A stretch of 48,904 nucleotides of DNA from contig JANYJP010000097.1 in assembly GCA_025358455.1 (NCBI GenBank), positions 1-48,904 of the forward strand, written 5' to 3'. The translations under genes and the position numbers were made by a program. This stretch comes from Bacteroidales bacterium (GTDB taxonomy: Bacteria > Bacteroidota > Bacteroidia > Bacteroidales > VadinHA17). Positions 22,655 through 38,693 of this stretch are shown here, one piece after another. Position 1 is the first letter of the stretch; each line of letters opens with the position of its first letter. The notes under the pieces are model-generated. The model saw only the letters and a program-made list of their open reading frames with translations. It made no database searches and was not told the DNA's origin.

Positions 22655-22684
22655 TTGATGATCCTGGTTTGCCAGTCCCGTGTT

Positions 22685-22717
22685 TTGTAATTCCAGAGGG
22701 GGATTTTGTTATCTTTG
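22685..22717 (+). promoter_or_regulatory. Promoter for hydE
   Basis: TTG at 22685-22687 and TATCTTTG at 22710-22717 are 22 nt apart. A start near 22723 would give a ~15-nt leader to the ATG at 22738 and excludes the ATG at 22669. Confidence 0.6.
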
Positions 22718-22737
22718 CAGACCCATTTATAATAATT

Positions 22738-23841
22738 ATGACTAGTGCAATTATAGATTTACTGAAACAAGACCAATTTTTTAAAAAAGATATTATCAGG
22801 CTTTTGGAAACACATGGAGAAGACAGAACTCTGCTCTTTAAAAAATCTGCTGAAGTCAAGGAAAAGTATATTGGAAACAAGGTTTGGTTCAGGGGATTAA
22901 TAGAGTTCTCAAATATTTGTGGAAAAGATTGTCTTTATTGTGGTATAAGAAAAGGAAATAAAAACTTAACCAGATACAATCTATCTGATGATGAGATACT
23001 TGCAGCAGCCAGATTTGCTTATAACAACAAATACGGGTCAATTGCACTGCAGTCAGGGGAACTGGAAGGCAGCTTCGTTGCTGAAAGGATTGAGAATCTT
23101 TTGAATAAGATCAAAGAGCTGTCCCATGGAGAACTTGGTATTACCCTGTCGGTTGGTGAACAGGAGCCTGAAGTATATAAAAAATGGTATGATGCGGGTG
23201 CTCATCGCTATCTTCTTAGAGTTGAAGCCACCAACGAGGCACTTTACAGGAAGATACATCCTGATGATTCAAAACATAATTTCAGACGCAGACTTGATTG
23301 CCTGAAAAGCCTGCAGGATATTGGTTACCAGACTGGTACAGGGGTCATGATTGGATTGCCATTTCAGACAATGGCAGATCTTGCGGATGACCTTCTATAC
23401 ATGAAGGAATTTAATATCGATATGTGTGGAATGGGACCCTATATTGAACATGCCGATACCCCGCTTATTGAACATTCAGGCACTCTGTTGCCGCTAAAAG
23501 AGAGATTTGATCTGACACTGAAGATGATCGCCATCTTAAGGATTATGATGAAAGATATAAATATTGTAGCTGCAACCGCGTTGCAGGCAATTGACCCAAT
23601 CGGAAGAGAAAAAGCAGTTAAGATCGGTGCAAATATCCTAATGCCAAATATTACTCCCGGTAAATATCGTGATAGTTACAAACTGTATGACAATAAACCG
23701 TGTACGGACGATTCCGCCGAGGATTGCCAGAGTTGTCTTGAGGCAAGGGTAAGCCTTGCTGATGCTGTAGTAGTTTATGGTGAATGGGGCGATTCAAAAC
23801 ATTACTCGGAAAGAAGAAACATCCAGGCCGGAAAGGATTAA
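22738..23841 (+). CDS. hydE: [FeFe] hydrogenase H-cluster radical SAM maturase HydE
   Basis: From ATG 22738 the protein has 367 residues. The radical-SAM motif CGKDCLYC gives Cys 61, 65 and 68 (CX3CX2C). GIRKGNKN, SGE and the C-terminal PNITPGKYRDSYKLYDNKPC with the ECXXC-like Cys cluster fit HydE. HydE helps build the azadithiolate bridge of the H-cluster with HydG and HydF. The longer frame from 22669 would add 23 residues encoded across the promoter, so I reject that start. hydG lies ~480 nt downstream. The annotation BioB/HydE-like is the fallback. Confidence 0.93.
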   Translation: MTSAIIDLLKQDQFFKKDIIRLLETHGEDRTLLFKKSAEVKEKYIGNKVWFRGLIEFSNICGKDCLYCGIRKGNKNLTRYNLSDDEILAAARFAYNNKYGSIALQSGELEGSFVAERIENLLNKIKELSHGELGITLSVGEQEPEVYKKWYDAGAHRYLLRVEATNEALYRKIHPDDSKHNFRRRLDCLKSLQDIGYQTGTGVMIGLPFQTMADLADDLLYMKEFNIDMCGMGPYIEHADTPLIEHSGTLLPLKERFDLTLKMIAILRIMMKDINIVAATALQAIDPIGREKAVKIGANILMPNITPGKYRDSYKLYDNKPCTDDSAEDCQSCLEARVSLADAVVVYGEWGDSKHYSERRNIQAGKD

Positions 23842-24067
23842 TAACTGCATTATTTTAATGAAATTGCAGGAGTCCAAAAAGTCCTTCCTTATTTACTGAA
23901 AACATTTTATAATGACTATTATCTGATAAAATTTACTTAATTATTATCCTTAAAACCCGAAAAATTTAGCTACTTTTGCACGCTGACAATTCTGAGAAAC
24001 GGTTAACACTTTTTCAAAGTCTGTCAGTGAAATATTTAAACGTATATCCAATCCAAAAGCTCATCTG
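23842..24067. other. Leader region before the TM1266-like gene
   Basis: These 226 bases hold a clear -7 element, TACTTTTG at 23971-23978, without a good -33 TTG. Transcription would start near 23984, leaving an ~84-nt leader before the ATG at 24068, long for this window. I see no recognised riboswitch fold in it. Confidence 0.4.
23971..23978 (+). promoter_or_regulatory. -7 promoter element for the regulator-hydG operon
   Basis: TACTTTTG is an exact TAnnTTTG match upstream of the TM1266-like gene. It implies that hydG is transcribed separately from hydE. Confidence 0.55.
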
Positions 24068-24361
24068 ATGGAAAAGAGAATCGGCACAATTACAATTTTA
24101 ATCAAAGGCAAAACCTCAGTTCCTGTTGTAAATGCCTTATTATCTGAATATAGCAGCATTATTCTTGCCCGTCAGGGCTTACCACTGCATCATCGGAATA
24201 TAAATGTAATTTCTCTTGTCATCGAAGGCACAATTGAGACAATCAGTGCTCTTACCGGAAAGATTGGACGTTTAGAAGATGTTGAAGTCAAATCTATTCT
24301 TACAAAATACAAGGAGGAGCAAAATGATGAACAAGAACGAAAGGAACAAAATATTTATTGA
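24068..24361 (+). CDS. TM1266-family putative [FeFe]-hydrogenase-system regulator
   Basis: This 97-residue protein starts MEKRIGTITILIKGKTSVPV and continues VNALLSEYSSIILARQGLPL, HHRNINVISLVIEGTIETIS and ALTGKIGRLEDVEVKSILTK. That is the TM1266 family, a small ferredoxin-like/NikR-C-like fold found beside hydrogenase maturation genes and annotated as an iron-only hydrogenase system regulator. It has no DNA-binding domain of its own. Its 3' end overlaps the hydG start by 38 nt in another frame. Confidence 0.85.
   Translation: MEKRIGTITILIKGKTSVPVVNALLSEYSSIILARQGLPLHHRNINVISLVIEGTIETISALTGKIGRLEDVEVKSILTKYKEEQNDEQERKEQNIY
24311..24317 (+). promoter_or_regulatory. Strong Shine-Dalgarno that fixes the hydG start
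   Basis: AAGGAGG ends 6 nt before the ATG at 24324. It lies inside the upstream gene. Such strong ribosome-binding sites are rare in Bacteroidota, and it decides for 24324 over the ATG at 24279. Confidence 0.7.
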
Positions 24362-25733
24362 TCGGGACAAAATATATTCACTCATTGAGGGCAAAACGCC
24401 TACCGAAGTCCAAACAAACACTATTCTTAATAAGGCGCTGAAGCTTAGAGGCTTAAATCTTGAGGATGTAGCTGCTTTATTGCGTGTTGAAGATCCTTCT
24501 GTAATACGTAAAATTATGGAGACTGCCCATACGGTAAAGGAAGAGATCTATGGGAAAAGGCTGGTTATATTCGCTCCTATTTATACAGGAAACGTATGCA
24601 TAAACAACTGCACTTATTGTTCATTCAGATCTGATAATAAACAAATTAAGCGGAAGGTGCTTTCCATGGAAGAGATCGCTGACGAGACACGTTCTCTCCT
24701 CAGAGAAGGACATAAACGGGTGCTTCTGATTTGTGGTGAAAGCAACCGCAACAATACAGACTATATGGTGGAAGCCATAAGAACAACTTACAGCGTCAGG
24801 GAGCATGGAGGCAGGGATTATGTGAGGCGAATCAATGTGGAACTGGCCCCTATGGAAGTTGAGGACTTTGCGAAACTTAAAGCTGAAAAAATCGGTACAT
24901 ATGTTTGTTTTCAGGAAACATATGACCCGTTATTATATAAGGAGTTTCATCCGGCAAACACAAAAAAGGGAGATTATGAATATCGCCTTACCGTAATGGA
25001 CAGGGCCATGGAAGGTGGAATAAATGATATTGGGATTGGGGCTCTGCTCGGATTAATTGATTATCGTTTTGAGGTTCTGGCGATGATGGAACATGCTCAT
25101 CATCTGGAAAGTGCCTTTGGCTGCGGGCCTCATACTGTCAGTGTACCCCGGATAGAGTATGCAGTCGGAGCTCCTCATTCAGAAAACATACCTTCAAAGG
25201 TCAGCGATAATGATTTTAAGAAAATTGTTGGTATTATACGTATTGCACTGCCTTACACGGGCATCATCCTGAGTACCCGCGAAAATGATGTTATGCGTAA
25301 TGAGCTATGCGATTATGGCATAAGTCAGGTTTCTGCAGGATCAAGAACTAACCCCGGATCATATTCGCACGAAGAAGAGCAGTCAGGCAGTCAGTTCACT
25401 TTAGGTGACCACCGCACACTCGATCAGGTGATCTCATCACTTGCCGACGGTGGTTATATACCATCCTTTTGTACAGGATGTTATCGCAAGGGAAGAGTTG
25501 GACAGGATTTTATGGATCTTGCTAAACCAGGACTGATCAAGCAATATTGTATGCCAAATGCTCTTTTCACATTCCAGGAATATCTCGAGGACTTTGCCTC
25601 ACCTGAGACAATGGAAAAAGGATTTGCATTAATTAATAAAATTGTCAGTGAAGTTGAGAATGACGCACTTAAAACGAAAATATCAGGCAATCTGACGTCA
25701 ATTGAAGAAGGCCAGCGGGATATCTATTTTTAG
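24324..25733 (+). CDS. hydG: [FeFe] hydrogenase H-cluster radical SAM maturase HydG
   Basis: From ATG 24324 the protein has 469 residues. The radical-SAM motif CINNCTYC gives Cys 92, 96 and 99. The C-terminal dangler-cluster motif CTGC-(22 residues)-C (FCTGCY...LIKQYC) is present, which separates HydG from the related tyrosine lyase ThiH. HydG cleaves tyrosine to supply CO and CN- as an Fe synthon for the H-cluster. It overlaps the TM1266-like gene by 38 nt and converges with the RibF-like gene, overlapping its end by 4 nt. Confidence 0.96.
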   Translation: MMNKNERNKIFIDRDKIYSLIEGKTPTEVQTNTILNKALKLRGLNLEDVAALLRVEDPSVIRKIMETAHTVKEEIYGKRLVIFAPIYTGNVCINNCTYCSFRSDNKQIKRKVLSMEEIADETRSLLREGHKRVLLICGESNRNNTDYMVEAIRTTYSVREHGGRDYVRRINVELAPMEVEDFAKLKAEKIGTYVCFQETYDPLLYKEFHPANTKKGDYEYRLTVMDRAMEGGINDIGIGALLGLIDYRFEVLAMMEHAHHLESAFGCGPHTVSVPRIEYAVGAPHSENIPSKVSDNDFKKIVGIIRIALPYTGIILSTRENDVMRNELCDYGISQVSAGSRTNPGSYSHEEEQSGSQFTLGDHRTLDQVISSLADGGYIPSFCTGCYRKGRVGQDFMDLAKPGLIKQYCMPNALFTFQEYLEDFASPETMEKGFALINKIVSEVENDALKTKISGNLTSIEEGQRDIYF

Positions 25734-26671: not shown

Positions 26672-27298
26672 CTAATTTAGACTCCCTTTTGCAAAATATG
26701 CAACCTTTTCAATTGAAGTAATCATATCATATTCTTCGAGATAGACTCCTGATGGCACATTAAGCGGAATAGTGGTAAAATTTAGAATTCCTTTTATCCC
26801 AAAGCGCACTGCTTCTTCTGAAATCTCTCTTGCAGAATCAGGAGGAACAGTCAGAATTGCGATTTTTATATCAAGGTCTTTTATCATCTTTTCAATTTCA
26901 TTGTAAGGATAACATTTCACCCCGGAAATAACTTTATTAACTTTCTGAGGATCATTGTCAAAAGAAGCCACAAGGTTGAGTTTTGATCGTTTCCCTTTGA
27001 AATAGCCTGCAACGGCTCTCCCCAGGTTACCAATACCGATAACTGCAACATTCATGCTCTCTTCGGAATCGATAATTTTGCCAATTGTATCAATAAGTTC
27101 CCTCACGTCATAACCTTTTCTGAGAACGCTTGAATAACCAATCAGCATAAGGTCGCGCCTGACCTGCACTGCAGTTATGTGCAGCCGGGCTGCAAGATCA
27201 TGAGAGTAGATGAAGTTTCTTTTTTCCTTTAGGCAATCAAGAAGTGACCTTCTGTATTCGCTGAGCCTTTCTACTGTTTTTCCTGGTAGTTTCATCAT
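26672..27298 (-). CDS. rex: Redox-sensing transcriptional repressor Rex
   Basis: This 208-residue repressor senses NADH/NAD+. Residues 1-75 form a winged helix (PGKTVERLSEYRRSLL, VRRDLMLIGY with the recognition helix) and residues ~82-200 a Rossmann fold with GIGNLG at 87-92 and a domain-swap helix at the end. In the NAD+ state Rex binds TTGTGAA/TTGTTAA-type palindromes; excess NADH releases it. Candidate operators are at 35094-35128 and 28898-28915 in this window, both upstream of genes in this same minus-strand cluster. It lies 5 nt after the hybrid kinase gene. Confidence 0.95.
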   Translation of the reverse strand: MMKLPGKTVERLSEYRRSLLDCLKEKRNFIYSHDLAARLHITAVQVRRDLMLIGYSSVLRKGYDVRELIDTIGKIIDSEESMNVAVIGIGNLGRAVAGYFKGKRSKLNLVASFDNDPQKVNKVISGVKCYPYNEIEKMIKDLDIKIAILTVPPDSAREISEEAVRFGIKGILNFTTIPLNVPSGVYLEEYDMITSIEKVAYFAKGSLN

Positions 27299-27303: not shown

Positions 27304-28440
27304 TCAGGTACTGGTTAATGGTTTTTTTGGTAGCCGGATGGTAAATACTGTTCCCACATCAGGGGTGCTGTCAACCTTAATTGTTCCATGATATAATTCC
27401 ACAACTTTCTTAACAATTGATAAGCCCAGTCCGCTGCCTGAAATGTTCCTGGTTTTTTCATTTTTGATTCTTACAAACTCAGCAAACAGGTTTTCAGTAT
27501 CATCTTTTGTTATCCCTATACCGGTATCTGATATTATTAATATCGCCTCGGTTTCTGAGCTATCTATGGTTATTTCAGCCTTTCCGCCTATTTTATTGTA
27601 CTTTACTGCATTAGATATGAGGTTATTAAAAACGATCTCCATATCATCAGGATCAGCCATAATAACTACATCAGATCTGACATCGAGATTAATATTCACA
27701 TCCATCTGGATAGCATAAGGCTGGACTGTTACAATTGAAGAAGAAGCTACTTCCGCCAGATTTACTTCCTGGATCTTTTCCTCTTTTTTTTCAAGCCGGA
27801 TCTTAGTAAAATCCAGCAGATCCATTATAAGATTCCTCATTCCCTGGATTCGTTGGAGCGATCGTTCAATCGGAGTTGCATAATCATCTATCAATTCCCC
27901 TGCCTGTTTCCCCTGCATCATTCTCAAATAACCTTCAAGCGCATTCAAAGGAGCTTTTAATTCATGTGAAAGGACGGAGAGAAACTGATATCTTATCTTC
28001 TTCCCCTCCTGTTTCAACTTATGAGTTATCCTCTTTAGATATTGCTGCTTAGTAATATTTTCGATACTCGATTTAAGCTCCTGTGGAGTAAAGGGTTTTG
28101 GGATGAAATCAATTGCTCCGTCACGGGTAGCTCTTATTGCCACATCGAGTGATGCGTAAGAGGTTATCATTGCAACAACGATGTCGTAATTTCTTTTCCG
28201 GATATATTCCAGAACATCAACTCCCTGTATACCAGGTAATTTATTATCCAGCAAAAGTATATCCGGCATATCGCGTTCAAGTATTTCTATACCATCTTCT
28301 CCGGTGGCAGCTTCTATGACTTCGAATGTATAATCCTCATCCATAAAAGGATATGTTACATGGAAATTGTTCAGTATTCGTGAAACACCAGACCGTATGC
28401 CTGGTTCATCGTCAATAACAAGTACTCTTAGAACAGCCAT
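27304..28440 (-). CDS. Receiver-histidine kinase hybrid (REC-HisKA-HATPase)
   Basis: This 378-residue cytoplasmic protein starts with a receiver domain (1-125) with D10/D11, phosphoacceptor D65 (ILLLDNKLPG) and the IPKPF lysine. A coiled linker leads to a HisKA domain with H159 (FLSVLSHELKAPLNALEG) and a HATPase domain with the N box NLISNAVKYN, ISDTGIGI and GSGLGLSIVKK. The kinase is unusual in being output, not input, of its receiver. It starts 1 nt after the single-domain receiver gene stops and precedes rex. Confidence 0.9.
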   Translation of the reverse strand: MAVLRVLVIDDEPGIRSGVSRILNNFHVTYPFMDEDYTFEVIEAATGEDGIEILERDMPDILLLDNKLPGIQGVDVLEYIRKRNYDIVVAMITSYASLDVAIRATRDGAIDFIPKPFTPQELKSSIENITKQQYLKRITHKLKQEGKKIRYQFLSVLSHELKAPLNALEGYLRMMQGKQAGELIDDYATPIERSLQRIQGMRNLIMDLLDFTKIRLEKKEEKIQEVNLAEVASSSIVTVQPYAIQMDVNINLDVRSDVVIMADPDDMEIVFNNLISNAVKYNKIGGKAEITIDSSETEAILIISDTGIGITKDDTENLFAEFVRIKNEKTRNISGSGLGLSIVKKVVELYHGTIKVDSTPDVGTVFTIRLPKKPLTST

Positions 28441-28441: not shown

Positions 28442-28837
28442 TTAAAGTTTTAAAAGTTTCATAACCTCCTGATCAAGCTGCTCAGGTCTAATTCCTTTCT
28501 CAAGATATTTGTCAGCCCTGATCCAGGCCTTGTCCTGTTCCGAATCAATACTAAATGTCAAACCTGTTTCGTGCGATACTGCAGTTGCAAGGATCACAGG
28601 TACATCCGGATATTTCCTTTTCATCTTGTAACACAGAATGAATCCACTATCGTCACTCTCCATCATGAGATCGAATATTGCCAGACTTGGTTTGAATCGG
28701 GCAATAACCGATTCGGCTTCTGCCTGGCTCTCCACTGCCATTGTTTTATAACCGGCTTTCTCCAGGTTAAATACTGTTTGAAAAAGATAATCAGGATCAT
28801 CATCGGCAACCAGTATTGTAAAGTCACTCTTATTCAT
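28442..28837 (-). CDS. Single-domain response regulator (REC only)
   Basis: This 131-residue protein is only a receiver domain: D12/D13/D14 in VADDDPD, phosphoacceptor D56 (LAIFDLMME), and a conserved lysine in RADKYLEKG. There is no output domain. It sits between the hydrogenase-like histidine kinase and the receiver-kinase hybrid and could pass phosphate between them. A Rex-like box lies 61 nt upstream. Confidence 0.88.
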   Translation of the reverse strand: MNKSDFTILVADDDPDYLFQTVFNLEKAGYKTMAVESQAEAESVIARFKPSLAIFDLMMESDDSGFILCYKMKRKYPDVPVILATAVSHETGLTFSIDSEQDKAWIRADKYLEKGIRPEQLDQEVMKLLKL

Positions 28838-28897: not shown

Positions 28898-28915
28898 ACG
28901 TTAAAATATTAACAT
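28898..28915 (-). promoter_or_regulatory. Rex-like operator upstream of the response-regulator gene
   Basis: The 18 bases ACGTTAAAATATTAACAT match TTGTTAA-N4-TTAACAA at 11 of 14 half-site positions, with GTTAA and TTAAC as perfect arms. It overlaps the end of the upstream kinase gene and lies 61 nt from the next start, a spacing like that of the box at 35094. No clear TAnnTTTG is seen in the 77-nt gap. Confidence 0.45.
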
Positions 28916-30876
28916 TACGCCTTCCTTCTCGGCAATACAATCTTAAAACTGGTACCGGTTGGTCCCTTTGCAGGGTCATCATTCGATTCAACAGTTATCT
29001 GACCTTTGTGCATCTTCACCACTCCATATGCTGTTGCAAGTCCCAGACCGGTTCCCTGTCCGATACTTTTCGTTGTAAAGAACGGCTCAAATATCTTAGC
29101 CCTGTCTTCTTCCCTGATCCCTGTTCCTGTATCACTTAAAATGATTATAACATCACTAAGTGTATCTTCAAGTTTTATGTTGATAAATCCTCCCTGTGCC
29201 ATAGCGTCTATTGCATTTTTGATCAGGTTTGTAAGAACCTGCATCATTTGTTCCAGATCGAGCATAGCATCCGGATTAGTTGACTCATCTGATATCGTTA
29301 TCTTAACTTTTGCAGGTATTATAAGACTCTCAAGACTATGATTTACCAGGTCTTTAATACTCACCTGCTGATGATTAACCTGGTTTTTTCTGGCAAAATT
29401 CAAAAGTCCTGCAACTATTTTTTTACATCTTCCGGCCTGTTCCACAATCAGTTTGAGGTCTTCCTTCATGGGATCTCCTTCGGTGGACTCATCAAGCAGT
29501 ATATTGCTGTACATTATCACAACACCAAGGGGGTTATTTAACTCATGGGCAATTCCTGCAGAAAGCTGCCCCATATGAGCAAGTTTCTCAGACTGTTTCA
29601 ATGCCTGCTTCATTGAGGTTAACTTCTCATTCGAAAGTGCCAGATCTTTTACAGATTTATGTAGTTTTTCGATTGCATAAGGCAGACACATCTCAACTTC
29701 AGCCAAGCCTTTTTTTATAGCTATCGCGTGATCGACACAACTCTCGTAACCGCAGGCACCACAATCCAGCTGGTCCTTCTTTGTAATCATTCCCATCTTT
29801 ATAAGAACCTCATTCACATCTTTTTCAGTGAGGTCCTCAATACGTCGATCGTCAGCTTTATGCCGTATTGATAAATCAAGCTCCGCGTATTCGTCAAATG
29901 ACTTCTGCCAGCTTTCAGAATCGATATTCTGCATTTTAGTATTTGCATAAGAACTTACGAGAGAACGTCTGTTATACTGTTTTCCGTTTTTCGATAATCC
30001 GGGTCCCATAATGCAGCCTTCACAGCAAAGAAGTTCCATATGCTGATTTTTTATCAGCCCTGCTTCAAATTCTTTTAATGCACCCTGAAAATCGATCCTT
30101 CCTTCTGCTGCTATTATATTTCCGGTAATTGCGTTATCACTGATCTTAGCCGTCTGAAGCAATCCCCTTGCAACAGGAAAGATTGCACCTCTACCACCTA
30201 CCGGCTGATCAAAATCAACCGGAGTACTGTTCTCTGCAGATATACCCCTGTCGATAAGCATATCTCTTAATTCAGTGAATGTAATAGCTTCGTCCACCTC
30301 ATTGCTTTCAGCTTTCTTCGCCACACATGGTCCGATAAACACTATCCGGGTATCATTACCATATTTTAAACGGATAACCTTACTCATTGCCACCATGGGT
30401 GATACTATAGGAGCAAGGTTATCAACCAGAGCCGGGTGATAGAATTTGACATAATTTACAATTGAAGGACAATCAGAAGAGATATAAAAATTTTTACTCT
30501 CAGAAACAAGCTTTTTATATCTGTCGGCTACCAGGTCGGCTCCAAAAGAGACTTCTGCCACATATTCAAAACCTAAAGATTTTACCATCCCCACAAGAAT
30601 ATGGTGGTCTGGAACATCCCCGAATTCTGCCGGGAAACTGGGTGCAACAATCGCGGCAACTTTCGAATTGCTTTCAAGCAGTTTCACGACTCTGTCTGTG
30701 GTATTGAGAAAAACCTTTGCGCCCTGACTGCATACTTTTGTACAGTTTCCGCAGGCAATACATCTTTCATCAATCACCTCAGCCTGACCGCCAACAATAC
30801 GGATAGCTTTGGCAGGGCATTCTCTGACACAGGTATAACAAGTACGGCACAGTTCCTTTATAGTGTAAACCAACAT
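28915..30876 (-). CDS. Hydrogenase-like sensor histidine kinase (group C HydS-like)
   Basis: This 653-residue protein joins a ferredoxin and hydrogenase-like sensor to a kinase. Residues 1-52 hold two [4Fe-4S] motifs (C10/13/16/20 and C39/42/45/49). Residues ~70-330 resemble the H-cluster domain: L1 SSDCPSIV with C136, L2 IGPCVAKK with C184 and K187, L3 ELLCCEGCIMGPG with C284 and C288. A Fe-S domain follows (C372, C375, C380, C397), then a coiled coil, HisKA with H444 (GIAHELNNPL) and HATPase (NLIKNAIDAM, GTGLGLATAYG). All four H-cluster cysteines are present, but the L1 Cys/Thr residues used for catalysis are not. Family knowledge places this with group C, histidine-kinase-linked sensory [FeFe] hydrogenases. 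Confidence 0.88.
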   Translation of the reverse strand: MLVYTIKELCRTCYTCVRECPAKAIRIVGGQAEVIDERCIACGNCTKVCSQGAKVFLNTTDRVVKLLESNSKVAAIVAPSFPAEFGDVPDHHILVGMVKSLGFEYVAEVSFGADLVADRYKKLVSESKNFYISSDCPSIVNYVKFYHPALVDNLAPIVSPMVAMSKVIRLKYGNDTRIVFIGPCVAKKAESNEVDEAITFTELRDMLIDRGISAENSTPVDFDQPVGGRGAIFPVARGLLQTAKISDNAITGNIIAAEGRIDFQGALKEFEAGLIKNQHMELLCCEGCIMGPGLSKNGKQYNRRSLVSSYANTKMQNIDSESWQKSFDEYAELDLSIRHKADDRRIEDLTEKDVNEVLIKMGMITKKDQLDCGACGYESCVDHAIAIKKGLAEVEMCLPYAIEKLHKSVKDLALSNEKLTSMKQALKQSEKLAHMGQLSAGIAHELNNPLGVVIMYSNILLDESTEGDPMKEDLKLIVEQAGRCKKIVAGLLNFARKNQVNHQQVSIKDLVNHSLESLIIPAKVKITISDESTNPDAMLDLEQMMQVLTNLIKNAIDAMAQGGFINIKLEDTLSDVIIILSDTGTGIREEDRAKIFEPFFTTKSIGQGTGLGLATAYGVVKMHKGQITVESNDDPAKGPTGTSFKIVLPRRKA

Positions 30877-30894
30877 ATCCAGATAGTTTGTTGA

Positions 30895-32616
30895 TTATAA
30901 TAATACGTTTCTTTTCTCAAAGTGAGTATAGAATATCTTTTTATCTGCAATATCGCTATTATCCTTTAAAAGCTTTTCATACAAATTAATACATGAAGGA
31001 GATTTACATGGCAGGTTTATAGCCTCAGTATCATCAGATTGGTAGACCAGTTTGGCCCTGCTTTTAATCTCATCTTTTGAAGGACTAAAAGGCAATCCAG
31101 CGCCATGGACGCATCCTCCCGGGCATGTCATTACTTCAATCAGATCATATTTTTTCCCTGAAGCCAGTGATATTTTCAATTTTTCGAGACCGGTCAATCC
31201 GTCTACAACAGCAACCCTTACATCTTTTTCGTCAATCTGAAGACTAGTTTCCCGGAACAAGCCTCCCGACCTTAGTTTTTTGAATAACTGTTTGTCAGGT
31301 TCTTTTTTCATTTTCATGAAATGTAATGATCGCAGTACACTTTCCGCCAATCCTCCGGATACTTCTGCCATTATTGCGGCTGAGCTTCTTCCGGCCATTG
31401 GTTCGTCGGCAGGTTCCTCTTCAATATTTGAAGTATCGATGCCGTACAGCCTTATTAGCCTGGCAAGTTCTCTTACGGTGAGTACAGAATCAACATCACT
31501 GATTCCTTTCCTCATCATACCATCGCGCCTGGCCTCAAATTTCATTGCCATACAAGGAGTTGCAGAAACAGAAAATATCTCCTCGGGTTTTACTCCGAGC
31601 TGACCTGCTACCAAAGTCTTAATTAAAACACCTGTTATTTGTTGTGGTGACTTAACAGTTGAGAGTTCCGGGATAAGTGAGGGAATAAACTGCTCAACAT
31701 ATTTGACCCAAGCAGGGCAAGCGGAAATATATAATGGTTTATCAGCTTTATTTTCAATTCTTTCCGATAATTGTCCGGTAATTTCAGTAATACAAACGTC
31801 AGTGCCGGTACCGGTTTTGAAGACCTTATCGAAACCAATTTTACGAAGGATAGCATTTAGTGTCTTATCAAATCCTTTAGTATATCGCAACCCGAGTTCT
31901 TCAGCTATTCCATAAACAACCATTGATGAATATTGAATGACTTTCACCATTTCAGGTTTATTAAGGTATTCCTGAACTTCTGCCAGATAGTGTTTTTCAT
32001 GAAGAGCGCCTGTGGGGCAAACCAACACACACTGGCCACAATGAATACAACTTGAAAAATTAAAATCCTTATCCATAGTTGCACCAACATGAGTCTCGCG
32101 TCCTTTATTTATGAAATCAAGAGAAGTTGCTGTAATCACCTCTTCACATACTCTTACACAGCGACCGCAAAGAATGCATTTCGATAATTCTCTGACTATT
32201 GACGGACTTGACTGGTCGAGACGAGGTTTAATTTTCCTTGCACGGATACGCCTTTCCCTGATATTCAGCTCTTCGGCCAGACGCTGGAGCTCACAATTCA
32301 GGTTTCTGTCGCAATAGAGGCAATCATCAGGATGGTTTGAAAGAAGCAGTTCTACAATAGTTTTTCTTGCTGTGATAACCCGTGGCGAGTGGGTCTTAAT
32401 TTTCATCCATTCTTCCACAGGCTGAGAACATGCAGTAACTAACCTGTCACGGCCCTCAACCTCCACAACACACATTCTACAGGCTCCGGTTGGAGTAAAC
32501 TCTTTCATCCTGCAAAGAGTTGGTATAATAATACCATTACGGTTTAAAGCTGAAAGGATTGTTTCACCTTTTTCGGCCCTGATCTTTTTATTGTTTACCT
32601 GTATTGTAAAAAGCAT
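30895..32616 (-). CDS. hydA: HydA-like [FeFe] hydrogenase subunit with altered active-site motifs
   Basis: This 573-residue subunit has the layout of the trimeric bifurcating HydA: plant-type [2Fe-2S] (C35, C46, C49, C63), the His-Cys cluster (H95...CLYCDRNLNC), two [4Fe-4S] motifs (C147-157, C190-200), the H domain (~210-510) and a C-terminal small-subunit-like tail (LPCKSPSCINLYEKLLK). The four H-cluster Cys are kept (C300, C355, C498, C502). By my alignment to C. pasteurianum CpI, E279, E282, C299, M353 and K358 are Ile, Gln, Ala, Thr and Met, while S319 is kept. It may be a poor or altered hydrogenase. hydB lies 5 nt upstream. The symbol reflects homology and position only. Confidence 0.85.
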   Translation of the reverse strand: MLFTIQVNNKKIRAEKGETILSALNRNGIIIPTLCRMKEFTPTGACRMCVVEVEGRDRLVTACSQPVEEWMKIKTHSPRVITARKTIVELLLSNHPDDCLYCDRNLNCELQRLAEELNIRERRIRARKIKPRLDQSSPSIVRELSKCILCGRCVRVCEEVITATSLDFINKGRETHVGATMDKDFNFSSCIHCGQCVLVCPTGALHEKHYLAEVQEYLNKPEMVKVIQYSSMVVYGIAEELGLRYTKGFDKTLNAILRKIGFDKVFKTGTGTDVCITEITGQLSERIENKADKPLYISACPAWVKYVEQFIPSLIPELSTVKSPQQITGVLIKTLVAGQLGVKPEEIFSVSATPCMAMKFEARRDGMMRKGISDVDSVLTVRELARLIRLYGIDTSNIEEEPADEPMAGRSSAAIMAEVSGGLAESVLRSLHFMKMKKEPDKQLFKKLRSGGLFRETSLQIDEKDVRVAVVDGLTGLEKLKISLASGKKYDLIEVMTCPGGCVHGAGLPFSPSKDEIKSRAKLVYQSDDTEAINLPCKSPSCINLYEKLLKDNSDIADKKIFYTHFEKRNVLL

Positions 32617-32621
32617 ATAGG

Positions 32622-34556
32622 CTATTTAACTTTTATTGCACTGAACTTACATATATCAAAACAGATACCACAACCAATACATTTTTCCTCAACTATGAAG
32701 AATGGCTGAAGCCTGGTTCCATAAATCGCATTTACAGGACACCTGGAAGCACAAGCTGTGCATCCTGTGCACTTGTCAACATCAATAGAGAATGACCTCA
32801 GTCCCCGGCAGATATTGGCCCTGCACTTCCTGTCAAAGATATGTTCTTCAAATTCATCCCTGAAATTTTTCAGGGCACTGATAAACGGGTTAGGTGCTGT
32901 CTGTCCAAGTCCGCAAAGCGAAGTGTCCTTCATCACCGATGCAATAGTCTCAAGTTGCATTACTCCTTTAAACCGTTCAAGAGTTGTTCCCGACTCTTCA
33001 TTTAAGGGTTTACGGATAACACTTTCAAGTATTTCAAGCATCCTTCCTGTTCCTTCACGGCATGGGATACATTTGCCGCAACTTTCGTTACGAATGAACT
33101 CCATATAATATCTCACGAGATCAACCATACAGGTATTCTCATCAATTATCACGAAGCCACCTGCTCCCATTCCTATTCCGTTTTCCCAAAGTTCCTCATA
33201 ATCAATTGCCAGATCGAGATTCTCTCTGGTAATAAAGGAACCCGATGCACCTCCAAGCTGTATCGCTTTAAACTCCCTTCCCTCCCTGATTCCGTCTGCA
33301 ATATCTTCCAGGATGGTCCTGATAGTAGTACCCATTTCAACCTCAATTACGCCGGACATGCGACCCTTGCCTGCCAGAGCAAAAACTTTGGTTCCGGGAC
33401 TATTCTCTGTCCCCAGTGAACGGAACCATTCCGGACCATTTTGCATAATTAACGGGACATTCATGAGGGTCTCAACATTGTTTATGACGGTTGGTTTTCC
33501 GAATAATCCTGACGTTGTGGGATAAGGTGGTTTAAGTTGTGGCATACCCCTTTTACCCTCCAGTGTATTAATCAGGGCTGTTTCTTCACCACAGACAAAC
33601 GCTCCCGGTTCTTTTCTTATAATAATATCGAGGTTATAACCGCTGGAGAAAATATTATGCCCGAAAAGTCCATATTCCCTGGCCATGTCTATTGCCTTCT
33701 GAAGCCTGTTTCGTGCATGGTCGGAACCTGATCTGATGAATACTATTGCATTTGACGCTCCAATGGCATATGCAGCTATCGCAATACCTTCAATAAGCCG
33801 GTGAGGATCGCTCTCAAGGATGGTCCTGTCGGTGAATGCTCCTGGATCACTCTCCTTTGCATTACAGATCAGATACCTGTTATTTGAGCTGGTATTTAGT
33901 GCATGCTTCCACTTAAGACCCGTAAGGTATCCGCCACCACTTCTCCCCCTCAGTCCGCTTTTTTCTATAATATCACACACTTCTTCAAATGTGTAATGTC
34001 TTATCGCTTTGACATATGACCGGTAACCACCTCTTGCAATATATTCTTCAATGCTCTCGGGATCGTAACAACCACAATTGCCAAGCACCACTCTTTTCTG
34101 GTTTGTAAAGAACGGAAGCTCATCCATAAAAGGTATACCCGGCCACAGCTCAAACCCTTTTGTACCGGTCTGACCGGCCAGGTCATCTTCGTTTATATCA
34201 TTATGGAAAACACCGTTCAGCAGAGGTTCAACTTTTTCCTCGGTAATATTTCTGAAAAACAATTTATTCTTTCCAGGAATCTGCACACATAACATCGGCT
34301 CAAAATTCGAAGGCCCGGTACACCCCACGCGAATTAGTCCTGCAGAAAGCTCATTTTCAGCAATATAAGTCTGAGTAGCAGAATATGTCTTTTCTGATCC
34401 GGAAATAATACTGCTGGTTCCGGACGATACAAAGATCACAGGATGATCAGGCTTTTCGCGCCTGACTTTCTGTAATACCTTCTCCGTTTCGGATGACAAA
34501 GTATCTGATTCAAACAACAGAACCTTTTCAATAAGGAGTGATTTCAAATCTTCCAT
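32622..34556 (-). CDS. hydB: HydB/NuoF-like NADH- and flavin-binding subunit
   Basis: This 644-residue subunit carries the FMN/NADH site. Order: a thioredoxin-like N-terminus (~1-120), the NADH loop GLRGRSGGGYLTGLKW, the FMN loop NAKESDPGAFTDR, KEPGAFVCGEETAL, an SLBB region, an N3-type [4Fe-4S] site (NESCGKCIPCREG...SLCGLGQ) and two C-terminal [4Fe-4S] motifs (CTGCTACASRCP, CIGCGICFDIC). The N-terminal domain has lost its [2Fe-2S] ligands: the first CxxxxC place reads SSGTSS and only C79 remains at the second pair. It lies between hydC and hydA and should be the NAD(H)-reacting and possibly bifurcating subunit. Confidence 0.92.
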   Translation of the reverse strand: MEDLKSLLIEKVLLFESDTLSSETEKVLQKVRREKPDHPVIFVSSGTSSIISGSEKTYSATQTYIAENELSAGLIRVGCTGPSNFEPMLCVQIPGKNKLFFRNITEEKVEPLLNGVFHNDINEDDLAGQTGTKGFELWPGIPFMDELPFFTNQKRVVLGNCGCYDPESIEEYIARGGYRSYVKAIRHYTFEEVCDIIEKSGLRGRSGGGYLTGLKWKHALNTSSNNRYLICNAKESDPGAFTDRTILESDPHRLIEGIAIAAYAIGASNAIVFIRSGSDHARNRLQKAIDMAREYGLFGHNIFSSGYNLDIIIRKEPGAFVCGEETALINTLEGKRGMPQLKPPYPTTSGLFGKPTVINNVETLMNVPLIMQNGPEWFRSLGTENSPGTKVFALAGKGRMSGVIEVEMGTTIRTILEDIADGIREGREFKAIQLGGASGSFITRENLDLAIDYEELWENGIGMGAGGFVIIDENTCMVDLVRYYMEFIRNESCGKCIPCREGTGRMLEILESVIRKPLNEESGTTLERFKGVMQLETIASVMKDTSLCGLGQTAPNPFISALKNFRDEFEEHIFDRKCRANICRGLRSFSIDVDKCTGCTACASRCPVNAIYGTRLQPFFIVEEKCIGCGICFDICKFSAIKVK

Positions 34557-34574
34557 CTGAAGAACTTAATAGAA

Positions 34575-35045
34575 TTAGTCGTTATCAATAACGTACTTTA
34601 ATTTTTTGATCAGTTCGGGCAGCTGCTCAGGTTTAATATGAGTATGATATTCGCCGTTAACATTCATAACCGGTCCGTTATTGCAACCACCCATACATGA
34701 AACTATCTCATAACTGAAGTTTCCATCTCTTGACGTTTGCCCGGCAACTATCCCCGTCTCTTCTTTTATCTTGTTAATAACGGCTTGCGATCCATTAAGG
34801 AAACATGATGTTCCATGACAGATTTTTATCTGGATCTTACCCGATGGTATAAACCTGAATTTGTCGTAAAATGTGGCAAGCCCATATATCTTTGTTGTGC
34901 TTAACCCAAGGAAGTTGCCAGTCTTTACAATCGCTTCTTCAGAAAGATAGCCGTGATCCTCCTGAATTTCCTGAAGAATTGGAATAAGATCCTCTCTTTT
35001 TCCCTGTTTGTATTTCTTCAGAATAATGTCAAGATCTGTACCCAT
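34575..35045 (-). CDS. hydC: HydC/NuoE-like [2Fe-2S] subunit
   Basis: This 156-residue thioredoxin-like protein binds one [2Fe-2S] cluster through C76, C81, C117 and C121 (KICHGTSCFLNG and SCMGGCNNGP; CX4C and CX3C). The N-terminal helical part (ILQEIQEDHGYLSEEAI) is typical of NuoE/HydC. It is the first gene of the minus-strand hyd cluster; its start lies 18 nt upstream of hydB, and a Rex-like double operator lies about 50 nt before it. Confidence 0.95.
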   Translation of the reverse strand: MGTDLDIILKKYKQGKREDLIPILQEIQEDHGYLSEEAIVKTGNFLGLSTTKIYGLATFYDKFRFIPSGKIQIKICHGTSCFLNGSQAVINKIKEETGIVAGQTSRDGNFSYEIVSCMGGCNNGPVMNVNGEYHTHIKPEQLPELIKKLKYVIDND

Positions 35046-35075
35046 CCAAATAATATATAGTATAAAAATTTAATG

Positions 35076-35083
35076 CAAAGATA
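35076..35083 (-). promoter_or_regulatory. -7 promoter element of the hydCBA operon
   Basis: On the minus strand TATCTTTG matches TAnnTTTG exactly; transcription would begin near 35069, leaving a ~24-nt leader. The nearest upstream TTG is 25 nt away, slightly too far. The Rex-like boxes begin 10 nt upstream of this element, so a bound repressor would block it. Confidence 0.6.
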
Positions 35084-35086
35084 ATT

Positions 35087-35135
35087 TATTTTATTGTTAA
35101 TAAATAAACAATGTTATTTTATTAACAATAAAATA
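35087..35135. promoter_or_regulatory. Double Rex-like operator within a perfect 18-bp inverted repeat
   Basis: Bases 35087-35104 and 35118-35135 are exact reverse complements with a 13-nt spacer centred on 35111. Each arm carries TTGTTAA or TTAACAA. Read as Rex sites (TTGTTAA-N4-TTAACAA), 35094-35111 matches 13 of 14 half-site bases and 35111-35128 matches 12 of 14; they share base 35111 and are related by the same dyad. The site lies between the hydC promoter and the divergent gene at 35329. Assignment to Rex is inference, supported by rex being in the same cluster. Confidence 0.68.
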
Positions 35136-35283
35136 CTGAGAACAAACAATCTGATTCCTTATTATATATTGCTGATTTATAATTTGTTATATAACATTTG
35201 TAAGGGTCTGATATTTTCAACTTCATACAGTATTTGATTGAATATTGTGATTTAAACTCAGAATCGAATGCATTCTGATTCTG

Positions 35284-35312
35284 TTGATACAGAGAAAAAA
35301 ATATTACTTTTG
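35284..35312 (+). promoter_or_regulatory. Promoter of the divergent sensor-phosphatase operon
   Basis: TTG at 35284-35286 and TACTTTTG at 35305-35312 are 18 nt apart, an excellent Bacteroidota promoter. Transcription would start near 35318, 11 nt before the ATG at 35329 and 26 nt before the in-frame ATG at 35344. Confidence 0.72.
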
Positions 35313-35328
35313 AGGTTGTTGTTTATTT

Positions 35329-35598
35329 ATGAACAGTAAGAAAATGGCTCAGAGAATTGAGATGCAAATTTGTCTAGGCAGTTCCTGTTTTTCAAGAGGT
35401 AACAAAGATGTTGTGATGTTTATCAAGGAATATCTCAGAAAGAATCATCTCGATGATAAGGTCATTTTCAGAGGAGCGCGTTGCATGGGTCTTTGCAGCA
35501 ATGGTCCTAACCTCACTATAAACGGGGTGTCAATAGAAGGCGTTACTCTTATAAAAATAGAGAGTATCCTGGAAAAAGAATTTGCCGGATTCATTTAA
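35329..35598 (+). CDS. Small [2Fe-2S] thioredoxin-like ferredoxin
   Basis: This 89-residue protein has the NuoE-type ligand set C15, C20, C52, C56 (ICLGSSCFSRG and GARCMGLCSNGP) and no extra domain, so it is a free-standing [2Fe-2S] thioredoxin-like ferredoxin. The in-frame ATG at 35344 (MAQRIEM) may be the real start given the promoter position. It is the first gene of the operon with the PAS-bearing hydrogenase-like sensor and the SpoIIE phosphatase and could carry electrons to the sensor. Confidence 0.88.
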   Translation: MNSKKMAQRIEMQICLGSSCFSRGNKDVVMFIKEYLRKNHLDDKVIFRGARCMGLCSNGPNLTINGVSIEGVTLIKIESILEKEFAGFI

Positions 35599-35615
35599 AC
35601 ACGAAAGAAATTAAT

Positions 35616-37508
35616 ATGACAGACAGAAAACCTGTTCTTTATATAAATGATGAAAAATGCAGAAACTCATATTCCTGTGTGCGTGTATGTCCGGTTAATG
35701 CCATTGAGGTAAAACCACAGAAAGCTCATCCGTTTATTCTTCCCAACAGATGTATCGGTTGCGGATTATGCTATGTATCATGTACGCCTCATGCAATAAG
35801 TTTCCGCGATTCGATGGAGGATGTAAAAAACCTGATTTCGTCAGGCAGAAAAACTGCCGCTCTGATAGAACCAAGCATTGCTTCGGAGTTTGACGACATA
35901 ACTGACTACCGGAAATTTGTTGGTATGATCAGGGCGCTGGGATTTGATTATGTGCATGAGGTTTCCTTTGGGGTTGATCTCATAGCTGCTTTATATGCAA
36001 AGCTATTTAAAAAAGCAGAAGGCAAGTATATGATTACTGCCAATTGTCCGTCTATTGTCAAACTTATTGAGAAGTTCCACCCCGAACTGGTACCCAATCT
36101 TGCACCTTTGGTCTCTCCTATGATTGCCACAGCTATGGTAGTAAAGGAATTATATGGTAACGCTGTTGCTACAGTTCAGATTGGTCCATGCATTGATTCA
36201 AAGGATGAAGCACTGAGGTACAAATCAGGAACACCGGTTGACGGGGTCCTTACATTTGTTGAGCTCAGGCAACTGTTTGATGAGGCAAAAATACAGGAGA
36301 GGCTGGTTAAATTGTCTGATTTCGATCCCCCTCATGGAAACTGGGGCGCCCTCTACCCTCTTCCTGCAGGTATAATTCAGGCCGGAGGAATAAAACGCGA
36401 CATGGTATCAAGCAGTGTAATTACAGCTTCGGGTAAGGAGGAGATTCTTGAAGCTATCAACGATTTTGATAAATATATAGATACGATTCAACATCATTTC
36501 AATCTATTTTTCTGTCACGGCTGCCTGCTTGGTCCAGGGATGCAACATCACAACGAGCGATTCCTGAGAAGGTCGCTTGTAAGGCACTATGCAGAAAAGA
36601 GAGTCGGTAAACTCGATAAGAATCTCTGGGAGAAGAATATGGAGAAATGGTCAAAGCTCGATTTTTCAAGAAGCTTTACACCCAACGACCAGCGTATCCC
36701 TGAACCACCGGAAGAAGCAGTACTTGAAGTTCTTAAGATCATAGGAAAAGATAATCCTGAAGAAGAGATTAATTGCGGAGCCTGCGGATACCTATCCTGT
36801 CGTGATTTTGCTACAACAGTTGCCAAAGGGCTTGCAGTTCCTGAGATGTGCCATACTTTCAATCTGAGAAATAAGCAGGAATATATAGAAACACTGAGGC
36901 AGACAAACAGAAAACTGGCTGATACCAAAAAGGCACTCAAAGAGTCTGAAGAGCTTGCCCGCAGAGAAAAAGAGGTAGCACAGAGCGCTTCTGATATGAT
37001 GAATAATATGCTTGAGAAACTTCCGACAGGTGTTGTCATTGTTGATAATTATCTTAAAATTTTGCACTCAAATCAAAGCTTCATCAATATAATTGGCGAA
37101 GATGCCAGGGCCATATCTGATGTGATTCCCGGACTTGCAGGAGCTGATATTAAAACACTTATTCCCTTTAATGTATATAACATGTTCACTTTTGTATTAA
37201 AGGAAGATGAGCCTGTTGTGAGCAAGGATGTTCATTTTGAGGATAAAATGCTGAATATCTCTATATTCCCGATCAAGAAAAACAAAATGTGCGGAGCAAT
37301 AATCCGCGACCTTTACTCTCCTGAAGTACAGGGGGAAGAGGTTACAAACAGGGTGAGTGAGGTAATTGAAAAAAATCTTGAAATGGTACAGAAGATAGGA
37401 TTCCTGCTTGGGGAAGGCGCTTCTGAAACGGAACAAATGTTAAACTCAATCATTGAGTCATATAAATCAAAAAAAAGCAGTCTTCAAAATAATCTGAAAA
37501 AACCATAG
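35616..37508 (+). CDS. Hydrogenase-like sensor with PAS domain (group C, phosphatase-linked type)
   Basis: This 630-residue protein is a paralogue of the sensor kinase at 28915. Ferredoxin motif 1 is C15-xx-S18-xx-C21-xxx-C25, with Ser for the second Cys; motif 2 is complete (C46/49/52/56). The H-cluster-like domain (~80-340) has L1 TANCPSIV with C144, L2 IGPCIDSK with C192 but Ser at the usual Lys place, and L3 FFCHGCLLGPG with C300 and C303, where the usual first L3 Cys position is F299. The Fe-S domain is complete (C387, C390, C395, C412), followed by a coiled coil and a PAS domain (~460-565). It has no kinase. The SpoIIE gene follows directly and is the likely output. Confidence 0.87.
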   Translation: MTDRKPVLYINDEKCRNSYSCVRVCPVNAIEVKPQKAHPFILPNRCIGCGLCYVSCTPHAISFRDSMEDVKNLISSGRKTAALIEPSIASEFDDITDYRKFVGMIRALGFDYVHEVSFGVDLIAALYAKLFKKAEGKYMITANCPSIVKLIEKFHPELVPNLAPLVSPMIATAMVVKELYGNAVATVQIGPCIDSKDEALRYKSGTPVDGVLTFVELRQLFDEAKIQERLVKLSDFDPPHGNWGALYPLPAGIIQAGGIKRDMVSSSVITASGKEEILEAINDFDKYIDTIQHHFNLFFCHGCLLGPGMQHHNERFLRRSLVRHYAEKRVGKLDKNLWEKNMEKWSKLDFSRSFTPNDQRIPEPPEEAVLEVLKIIGKDNPEEEINCGACGYLSCRDFATTVAKGLAVPEMCHTFNLRNKQEYIETLRQTNRKLADTKKALKESEELARREKEVAQSASDMMNNMLEKLPTGVVIVDNYLKILHSNQSFINIIGEDARAISDVIPGLAGADIKTLIPFNVYNMFTFVLKEDEPVVSKDVHFEDKMLNISIFPIKKNKMCGAIIRDLYSPEVQGEEVTNRVSEVIEKNLEMVQKIGFLLGEGASETEQMLNSIIESYKSKKSSLQNNLKKP

Positions 37509-38693
37509 GTGAACAGAAACTTTTTTATAGAGGTAAACAGCCAGCAGAGAAACCACGATGGAGAAAGGATCAGCGGGGATGTATTTCTGTATCGCTATAT
37601 TAAGGAGGAAGATAGAGTAATTGCAGTATTATCTGACGGAATGGGGCACGGAGTTAAAGCAAATATCCTGGCAACCCTTACGGCAACAATGGCAATTAGT
37701 TTTACCAGAGAACATAAAGAAGTTGACCGGATAGCTGAGATAATTATGAATACTCTGCCGGTATGCAGTGAGCGAAAAATCAGCTATTCAACTTTCACAA
37801 TAATTGATATTGAGAGCAGTGGACGCGTTACCGTACTTGAGTATGATAACCCATCGACAATCATTTTGAGGGGAAATCAGATTTTTGATCCTTCATGGAA
37901 AAAGGTTGTTCTTCAAAAAGGAAAACACTCAGGAAAGGTATTGAAAACATGCTCCTTTATGCCTGAGAAAGAAGACAGAATAATATTTTGCTCCGATGGA
38001 GTATCGCAGAGCGGAATGGGAAGTGAAGCTTATCCGTTTGGATGGGAAAGAGATAATATAGCAACTTATGCTGCCTCTCTTGTAACAAGCGAATCATCTA
38101 TTTCAGCAATCATGCTTTCCGGAAAAATTGTTACCATGGCTCATAAAAACGATAGCTACAAAGCCAGAGATGATATAAGCTGCGCAACAATTTATTTTCG
38201 GGAACCACGTAAATTACTGGTTTGTACCGGTCCCCCTTATGAGAAGGATAAAGATAAAGAGCTGGCAGGAAAAGTCATTGGGTACAAAGGGAAGGTTATC
38301 CTTTGCGGTGGAACAACAGCTGATATAGTTGCCAGGGAACTGAACCGGACAGTTGTCGATGAACTTATATTTGAAGATCCTGAACTACCCCCCGAAAGCT
38401 TCCTGGAGGGGATTGACCTTGTTACTGAAGGAATACTTACACTTCAGAAGGTAAATGAAATTCTGAAAACCTTTAATAACAGTATCAAGCTGGGTAAAGG
38501 ACCTGCAGATAAGATAGTAAGACTCCTTATGGAAAGTGATGAAATCCACTTTGTTATCGGAACAAGAATAAATATTGCACACCAGGATCCCAATCTTCCT
38601 GTAGACCTCGAGATCAGAAGAACTGTTGTAAAACGCATTGCACGGTTGCTGGAAGAAAAATGGCTGAAAAAAGTTAGTTTCGAATATATATAG
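37509..38693 (+). CDS. SpoIIE-type PP2C phosphatase linked to the hydrogenase-like sensor
   Basis: This 394-residue protein has a PP2C/SpoIIE domain (~1-230) with metal-binding ERISGDVF (D24), VLSDGMGHG (D43), FCSDGVSQSG and RDDISCATI. The last ~150 residues (LLVCTGPPYEKDKDKELAGK, VILCGGTTADIVAREL, ILKTFNNSIKL) are a separate conserved extension of unknown role. It should dephosphorylate a Ser/Thr-phosphorylated partner. It starts with GTG immediately after the sensor stop codon, so the pair is tightly coupled. No anti-sigma factor or STAS target is visible in the window. Confidence 0.88.
   Translation: MNRNFFIEVNSQQRNHDGERISGDVFLYRYIKEEDRVIAVLSDGMGHGVKANILATLTATMAISFTREHKEVDRIAEIIMNTLPVCSERKISYSTFTIIDIESSGRVTVLEYDNPSTIILRGNQIFDPSWKKVVLQKGKHSGKVLKTCSFMPEKEDRIIFCSDGVSQSGMGSEAYPFGWERDNIATYAASLVTSESSISAIMLSGKIVTMAHKNDSYKARDDISCATIYFREPRKLLVCTGPPYEKDKDKELAGKVIGYKGKVILCGGTTADIVARELNRTVVDELIFEDPELPPESFLEGIDLVTEGILTLQKVNEILKTFNNSIKLGKGPADKIVRLLMESDEIHFVIGTRINIAHQDPNLPVDLEIRRTVVKRIARLLEEKWLKKVSFEYI

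Follow-up and report, generated by a model that had tools for sequence, protein, structure and literature searches.

Gene content and conservation of the locus

A 48,904-nucleotide contig of a Bacteroidales bacterium of the VadinHA17 lineage (assembly GCA_025358455.1, contig JANYJP010000097.1), the whole of which is called the window here, carries the genes of a HydABC-like complex bracketed by two hydrogenase-like sensors, S1 and S2 (Table 1). The HydA subunit of this locus retains its iron-sulfur (Fe-S) cysteines and has lost three of the four residues of the proton pathway of [FeFe]-hydrogenases. On the minus strand the gene order is hydC, hydB, hydA, S1, RR, RR-HK, Rex, and ribF; on the plus strand c2, S2, and SpoIIE diverge from hydCBA across a shared promoter region. 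An initial annotation, made from the letters alone, had placed two hydrogenase-like sensors around HydABC, and every one of its open reading frames was recovered in position, with the sensor domains identified by Pfam. HydF is encoded outside the window, on contig C66 of the same genome (G000); nine weaker matches to the HydF model lay below the cut-off and were ignored.

Table 1. Features of the dual-sensor locus and nearby genes, in window coordinates
Feature	Coordinates	Strand	Domains, motifs, and residues
S1 sensor kinase	28915..30876	-	2x[4Fe-4S] + H domain (P1 SSDCP, P2 GPCVAKK, P3 CCEGC) + FeS + HisKA/HATPase_c
HydA-like subunit	30895..32616	-	I279, Q282, A299, S319, T353, M358; 19 conserved Fe-S Cys intact
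HydB-like FMN/NADH subunit	32622..34556	-	N-terminal [2Fe-2S] ligand positions S48, C79, S83; CNAKE (K234) for CNADE; other Fe-S/Zn Cys intact
HydC-like [2Fe-2S] thioredoxin-fold subunit	34575..35045	-	4 Cys intact
Rex-operator-like palindrome	35094..35111	.	TTGTTAA-N4-TTAACAA, 1 mismatch; divergent promoter region
c2, 89-aa [2Fe-2S] thioredoxin-like protein	35329..35598	+	heads S2 gene string
S2 sensor	35616..37508	+	2x[4Fe-4S] + H domain (P1 TANCP, P2 GPCIDSK, P3 FCHGC) + FeS + long helix + PAS-like
SpoIIE/PPM phosphatase	37509..38693	+	C-terminal part (about 234-394) conserved, without Pfam match
RR, stand-alone receiver domain	28442..28837	-	co-conserved
RR-HK, receiver-histidine kinase hybrid	27304..28440	-	REC-HisKA-HATPase; co-conserved
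Rex, NADH/NAD+-sensing repressor	26672..27298	-	part of same gene string
HydE, TM1266-like, HydG maturation/associated genes	22669..25733	+	

Three sets were surveyed: relatives of the same genus and order, 80 loci retained from 163 relatives found among genome contigs, and 60 loci from other families of the order. In all three, given enough sequence, the string SpoIIE-S2-c2 faces C-B-A-S1-RR-RRHK-Rex, apart from the gaps described below. Dozens of relatives share this gene order, so the locus is no chance neighborhood. Of 393 genomes sampled from the order, 212 encode a protein related to the S1 front end (E<=1e-25), a count that also takes in S2 and further relatives; S2 is present as well in 24 of the 60 loci that had been selected for holding S1.

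Loci were scored as dual where HydA and S2 were both seen, and as S1-only where S1 lay nearby and at least 2.5 kb past hydC (or past hydB less 500 bases) held no S2. After HydA rows with fewer than 400 aligned residues (e.g., L066, split in two) had been dropped and identical rows merged, 132 distinct rows were left; three of other hydrogenase types (L044-L046) were set aside, and the remaining 129 comprise 89 dual, 21 S1-only, and 19 undetermined loci. S1 is present in 85 of the 89 distinct dual loci, the c2 protein in 87, and SpoIIE in 84, with four of the five SpoIIE misses falling on stretches under 12 kb. These counts bear out the proposal that two output types are co-conserved with HydABC at one locus, and the genome-context search found both sensor types, in co-conserved operons, in many Bacteroidales families. 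Natural losses of S1 from between hydA and RR/RR-HK, both of which are retained, occur in L007 (=L064), L013 (=L082), and L043, while L128, L135, L164, and L176 carry an S1 orthologue with no hydABC in the fetched stretch.

Contig truncation was considered as the main cause of S2 absence and rejected: 19 canonical loci, with C299 and K358 in HydA (22 rows less three of other types), have at least 2.5 kb past hydC without S2. A single whole-genome match to the S1 front end (E<=1e-25) is found in 21 of the 25 genomes of the S1-only clade.

The initial annotation could name no described system with this sensor pair, a claim that is now ruled out, since two bfuT genes flanking bfuABC were published in 2024 (PMC11406978). 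That paper describes three Bacteroidota with an extra bfuT upstream of bfuC beside one downstream of bfuA, and calls the implications unclear. A histidine kinase gene and a further hydrogenase-like gene are also reported beside a bifurcating cluster in Thermoanaerobacter (PMC3608648).

Residue losses in HydA and HydB

The closest solved relative of the window HydA is 8a6t HydA, and in the stretch considered here the residue numbers of the window protein coincide with those of CpI. In an alignment to solved HydA, T. kivui HydA reads TSCCPSW and MPCIGKKFE where the window HydA reads ISACPAW and TPCMAMKFE; the segment TPCMAMK departs from the P2 motif MPCxAKK. The proton pathway runs E282-S319-E279-C299 (PMC6226526), and three of its four residues are lost in the window HydA (E279I, E282Q, and C299A), with S319 kept. 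M353 and K358 are also replaced, by Thr and Met. In CpI, C299A shows no significant activity, the gap that arises in E279A cannot be bridged, and the E282Q variant is mostly inactive (PMC6226526).

A complete proton pathway is found in 0 of 89 dual, 18 of 21 S1-only, and 10 of 19 undetermined loci. At positions 299 and 358, dual rows carry Ala-Met (53, hereafter the Ala/Met type), Cys-Lys (12), or Asp-Lys (9), with His, Ser, Asn, Glu, Phe, Leu, Ala-Arg, or Cys-Gly in the remaining 15; outside the Ala/Met type the pathway is again complete in 0 of 36. Of the 89 dual loci, 85 have lost E279 and 76 have lost C299, and each of the 13 that retain C299 is missing at least one other pathway residue. 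The E282 position of the window clade holds Gln in 37 and Glu in 8 of 59 rows, and Ala299 together with Met358 recurs in 31 of 31 HydA rows of the window's genus. Among S1-only loci, those without a complete pathway are L181, L137, and the very divergent L171; the genomes of L181 and L137 each have, on a separate contig, an H-domain gene of the size of S2 (G117:C25 and G192:C33, respectively).

The Fe-S wiring is conserved. The four H-cluster cysteines (equivalents of C300, C355, C499, and C503) are present in 129 of 129 HydA rows, and the other 15 conserved Fe-S cysteines of HydA are intact in every aligned dual and S1-only row. With their Fe-S cysteines, hydA, hydB, and hydC agree with group A3 except at the N-terminal cluster of HydB; HydA scores below the NCBIfam cut-offs for group A [FeFe]-hydrogenases (NF040763, 577 of 765 bits; TIGR02512, 348 of 406 bits). 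The label "HydABC-like enzyme" in the initial annotation hides the non-canonical surroundings of the H2 active site. In two of the rows set aside as other types, L044 (G000:C38) and L046, HydA reads TSCSP, with C299 present and Ser at the C300 ligand position; Ser at this position is common in most BfuA sub-types (PMC11406978).

In sensory hydrogenases the C299 position is Ala in about 43% and Cys in 17%, and the M353 position is Gly, Ser, or Thr (PMC10055695). Because sensory HydS proteins carry these letters, the Ala/Thr pair of the window HydA is of the sensory type, placed inside a full HydABC. The residues that hydrogen-bond the [2Fe] cofactor are said to be conserved in sensory hydrogenases (PMC10055695), and the loss of Lys358 in the window HydA goes further than the changes in those sensors. 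In CaHydA, efficient turnover is retained only with Asp at the C299 position, C298D costing about 2-fold in kcat (PMC3485046), so that dual rows with Asp could still work and most others should not.

The N-terminal [2Fe-2S] cluster of HydB (B1) lies 12 Å from C1 and near the flavin mononucleotide (PMC9499530). It was scored here on three Cys columns, even canonical rows of this set showing three Cys. The triad is complete in 37 of 41 rows with C299 intact versus 13 of 80 rows with C299 lost, and nine of these 13 are Asp rows. All three positions are Cys in each of the 19 canonical S1-only rows that were scored; the window HydB keeps only C79 and departs from the group A3 ligand set. Several BfuB clusters are reported to be absent from non-bifurcating homologues (PMC9304861); among the HydB clusters only the N-terminal one is lost here. 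All 55 Ala/Met rows have CNAKE or CNARE in place of the flavin-pocket motif CNADE, whose Asp is kept in 20 of 21 S1-only and 25 of 36 other dual rows. HydA of the Ala/Met clade is under purifying selection: the median ratio of nonsynonymous to synonymous substitution rates (dN/dS) is 0.039 for HydA (25 close pairs) and 0.038 for HydB (23 pairs), values that are rough, as pairs share ancestry and the median dS is 0.7-0.9.

Canonical hydrogenases elsewhere in these genomes were counted as PF02906 matches of at least 300 bits besides the S1 locus. Among the 27 genomes with both sensors (26 with the sensors at one locus, and G192 with them apparently on two contigs), 27 have at least one and 24 at least two such matches. 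The 25 genomes of the S1-only clade (S2 shown absent locally in 18, flanks short in 7) have none in 11 cases, one in 14, and two in 0. The window's genome encodes two HydA proteins outside the window with C299, K358, and the full proton pathway. A third H-domain regulator of the same genome precedes a canonical hydB-hydA-hydC set (L045:4210-12603, G000:C83), in a string of small proteins read here as DRTGG-like, an RsbW-like HATPase, and a 462-aa HydS-like protein (P1 SSYCP). H domains also lie within very large open frames (1089-1335 aa; G384:C224, G298:C414, G208:C934, and G125:C122:74255), which may represent one more kind of multidomain sensor in S1-only genomes.

Sensors, phosphatase, and Rex

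S1 matches the Pfam families Fer4, Fe_hyd_lg_C (PF02906, 146 bits), FeS (PF04060), HisKA, and HATPase_c, and S2 matches Fer4, Fe_hyd_lg_C (PF02906, 134 bits), and FeS (PF04060). With 38% identity across 406 aligned positions, the front ends of S1 and S2 are paralogues. The C299 equivalent is Asp in S1 and Asn in S2, and S2 lacks the K358 lysine. An FeS-H domain-FeS unit fused to an output or PAS domain (that of S2 being sub-threshold), together with the replacement of C299, places both among proteins with group C sensory features. Histidine kinase-linked C1 and phosphatase-linked C3 proteins, both putative, have been distinguished (PMC5037454), whereas PAS-bearing and histidine kinase-bearing BfuT proteins are both classed as C3 in PMC11406978, with HATPase_c also found in its C1 proteins; the sensory role of group C proteins is still described as putative (PMC8924675).

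H-cluster ligand positions are intact in 68 of 69 aligned S1 rows, the remaining row being gapped at P2, and in 84 of 86 aligned S2 rows, the exceptions being L038 and L122. The S2 orthologue of L038 (L038:3631-5577, G042) has lost all H-cluster cysteines with the remainder of the gene retained, which suggests that S2 can signal without an H-cluster. Of the phosphatase-coupled PAS sensor proposed initially, the H domain and the phosphatase stand, the latter as a separate open reading frame (PF07228, 46 bits), and the PAS domain of S2 is seen only below the Pfam threshold (PAS_8, E=0.0028; PAS, E=0.016). The AlphaFold2 model of S2 is poor overall (predicted local distance difference test, pLDDT, 54; predicted template modeling score, pTM, 0.36), with a PAS-like order of strands and helices at residues 471-570 in a block of pLDDT about 69-84. 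Its best 50 fold-search matches were all hydrogenases and, coming from a low-confidence model, were discarded as a basis for the PAS claim.

The SpoIIE protein is modeled as a PPM phosphatase fold (pLDDT 83), with structural matches to SpoIIE, RsbU, and RsbX. Its residues D24, D43, D163, and D222, which we take to be metal binders, are invariant in 18 of 18 aligned sequences, and the protein should act on a phosphoprotein. The C-terminal 161 residues (window 38208-38690, plus strand) match no Pfam family up to E=5 and are strongly conserved among relatives. RsbW-like kinases occur in the window's genome (C13 and C83 clearly above the cut-off), with none at the locus. About 5 kb away, a 1104-aa protein (window 43363-46677, minus strand) combines, by eye, a propeller-like sensor part with a C-terminal SpoIIE-type phosphatase, and would be a second PPM phosphatase of this region. 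Since neither RR nor RR-HK has a DNA-binding domain by Pfam, the output of the proposed S1 relay lies elsewhere.

The Rex gene belongs to the conserved string of the locus. A site with at most two mismatches to TTGTTAA-N4-TTAACAA, presumably the Rex operator consensus, precedes hydC in 50 of 54 Ala/Met loci versus 2.7% of shuffles, in 23 of 36 other dual loci (shuffles 1.8%), and in 4 of 31 remaining loci (shuffles 1.5%). Both elements of a Rex regulon, the Rex gene and a putative operator palindrome conserved above chance, are thus found here.

Interpretation and relation to known systems

Gene content, co-conservation, residue losses, purifying selection, conservation of the operator-like motif, and the presence of other canonical hydrogenases point, with a probability of about 0.5, to a Rex-controlled module for H2 or redox sensing that includes a repurposed HydABC. 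Rex would read NADH/NAD+ and, as its motif and linkage suggest, gate both divergent operons via the operator between them. With its Fe-S wiring kept and the group A proton pathway lost, HydABC would bind or read H2 or the redox state without fast H2 turnover. S1 would report this state to RR and RR-HK by a His-Asp phosphorelay. For its part S2, together with the [2Fe-2S] protein c2, would set the activity of the SpoIIE phosphatase on a phosphoprotein. The identity of the signal, the flow of electrons between HydABC and the sensors, and the targets are predictions from this arrangement, as is the two-branch H2 or redox response proposed initially. In its fullest form, which is offered tentatively and is less likely than not, the proposal is that the whole bifurcating complex has become a Rex-controlled, non-catalytic H2/redox sensor core with two outputs, a His-Asp relay and Ser/Thr dephosphorylation. 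On this view the pathway broke near the base of the dual lineage and eroded further many times, with the Fe-S wiring held by selection.

Several observations weigh against the sensing module. Linkage, as read from the genome, does not show HydABC talking to S1 or S2, and S1 is gone in two genus members (L007=L064 and L013=L082) with the degenerate HydA retained. C299 is still present in the 13 dual loci noted above. Furthermore, TmHydS with Ala is more active than CpI C299A and keeps low activity (PMC10055695), so that Ala at position 299 is not to be equated with no activity, and an alternative proton route has been published for a sensory-type enzyme (PMC10407848); on these two grounds, the complex may still turn over H2. 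The phylogeny adds to these points. On the HydB tree, canonical S1-only loci form one clade (25 rows; SH-like approximate likelihood ratio test 99.5) and the full pathway is lost in one step, and on the S1 tree the three starred independent pairs gave on average 1 difference in the expected direction, 0 in the opposite direction, and 2 with no difference (sign test p=1).

For the trees alone, the 59 Ala/Met rows were reduced to 12-13. The HydB and S1 trees omit L171, L167, and L044-L046, the last three being of other hydrogenase types (one HydB tree kept L171, L167, and L045), and the S1-tree comparison also excluded loci lacking a long HydB or S1. Dual and S1-only states switch 3-4 times on the HydB tree. 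The S1 tree is less clean, with L136 and L140 outside the main S1-only group and the dual L133 and L148 inside it, weakly supported; here the dual/S1-only state and pathway loss each change 7 times. With 2-3 starred-branch pairs on either tree and a sign test p=1, the phylogenetically independent test of dual loci against proton-path loss was rejected as proof, and independent pairs for the HydB cluster against C299 or K358 gave median p values of 1 and 0.5. C299 (Cys versus not) changes at least 8-10 times by parsimony. Given a single pathway loss and a single clade of canonical S1-only rows on the HydB tree, dual versus S1-only is phylogenetically confounded. The contrast of 0/89 with 18/21 is a strong pattern, but it probably goes back to one early event with repeated erosion afterwards, and is no proof that the gain of S2 caused the loss of the pathway.

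The complex could instead be an ordinary, slower hydrogenase that interconverts H2 via another proton route, both sensors simply regulating HydABC. The ligands of the H-cluster, the clusters of the A subunit, and HydE, HydF, and HydG for maturation are present, and the low activity of TmHydS with Ala and the modest kcat loss of CaHydA C298D, in view of the nine dual rows with Asp, lend it some support. It is nevertheless somewhat improbable, as E279, C299, and mostly E282 change in the window clade along with K358, M353, the flavin-pocket Asp, and the [2Fe-2S] ligands of HydB, and the corresponding CpI variants of the pathway are defective (PMC6226526). If HydABC had turned into a non-hydrogenase oxidoreductase, e.g., one supplying electrons to the sensors or to another partner with H2 not involved, then the purifying selection on the Fe-S chain, the loss of the proton path and K358, the regular company of c2 and S2, and the retention of S2 in L038 would fit; however, the flavin/NADH pocket is also altered, which speaks against unchanged NADH chemistry, and the nearly invariant H-cluster ligands of S1 and S2 likewise make this reading unlikely. 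Decay of HydA as a redundant protein, at a locus without special role, would be eased by the other canonical hydrogenases in all 27 dual genomes, but is very improbable given a dN/dS of 0.039 in the clade with the most residue losses and the same Ala299 and Met358 throughout the window's genus.

The distinction between sensing and turnover matters for the reading of metagenomes. Judged on their domains, such loci resemble bifurcating hydrogenases, whose models the window HydA and HydB still match, and would be counted as H2 producers or consumers; if the dual-locus HydA does not turn over H2, these counts would be in error across a large group of Bacteroidales anaerobes. Moreover, the natural series at position 299 (Cys; Asp; Ala, His, Ser, Asn, and others; with or without Lys358) is a ready-made test set for separating the residues of catalysis from those of sensing.

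Among known systems, the group A3 HydABC of T. maritima and T. kivui shares the subunit make-up and nearly all Fe-S clusters with the window complex, which differs in lacking E279, E282, C299, M353, and K358 in HydA as well as two of the three N-terminal [2Fe-2S] cysteines and the flavin-site Asp of canonical relatives in HydB. The sensory TmHydS (group C) and TamHydS (group D) resemble the window HydA in the replacement of C299 and in a small residue at position 353, and resemble S1 and S2 in the FeS-H-FeS front end and S2 in its PAS-like part. Unlike them, the window HydA has no output domain and is a complete subunit of HydABC, and both it and S2 lack K358. NiFe-HydABCSL of A. mobile, whose HydA has no H cluster, indicates that a HydABC core is usable without an active HydA site (PMC9304861); in that complex extra NiFe subunits catalyze, whereas the window gene string has none and keeps the H-cluster cysteines.

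The nearest published arrangements are the BfuABC(T) sub-types IV and V and the loci with two bfuT genes (PMC11406978), which likewise have HydABC with one sensor upstream of bfuC and another downstream of bfuA, and both PAS and histidine kinase types of BfuT. Their description, in the sections consulted, gives a P1 motif of xTSCxPxWx and mentions neither loss of the catalytic Cys or proton path in BfuA or of the HydB N-terminal cluster, nor SpoIIE, Rex, or relay genes. A literature search recognized no report of a proton-path-deficient HydABC beside two sensors, an absence that is weak, as subscription papers were thinly covered. Compared with these systems, what appears to be new at this locus is the non-canonical enzyme, the sensor pair itself having already been published.

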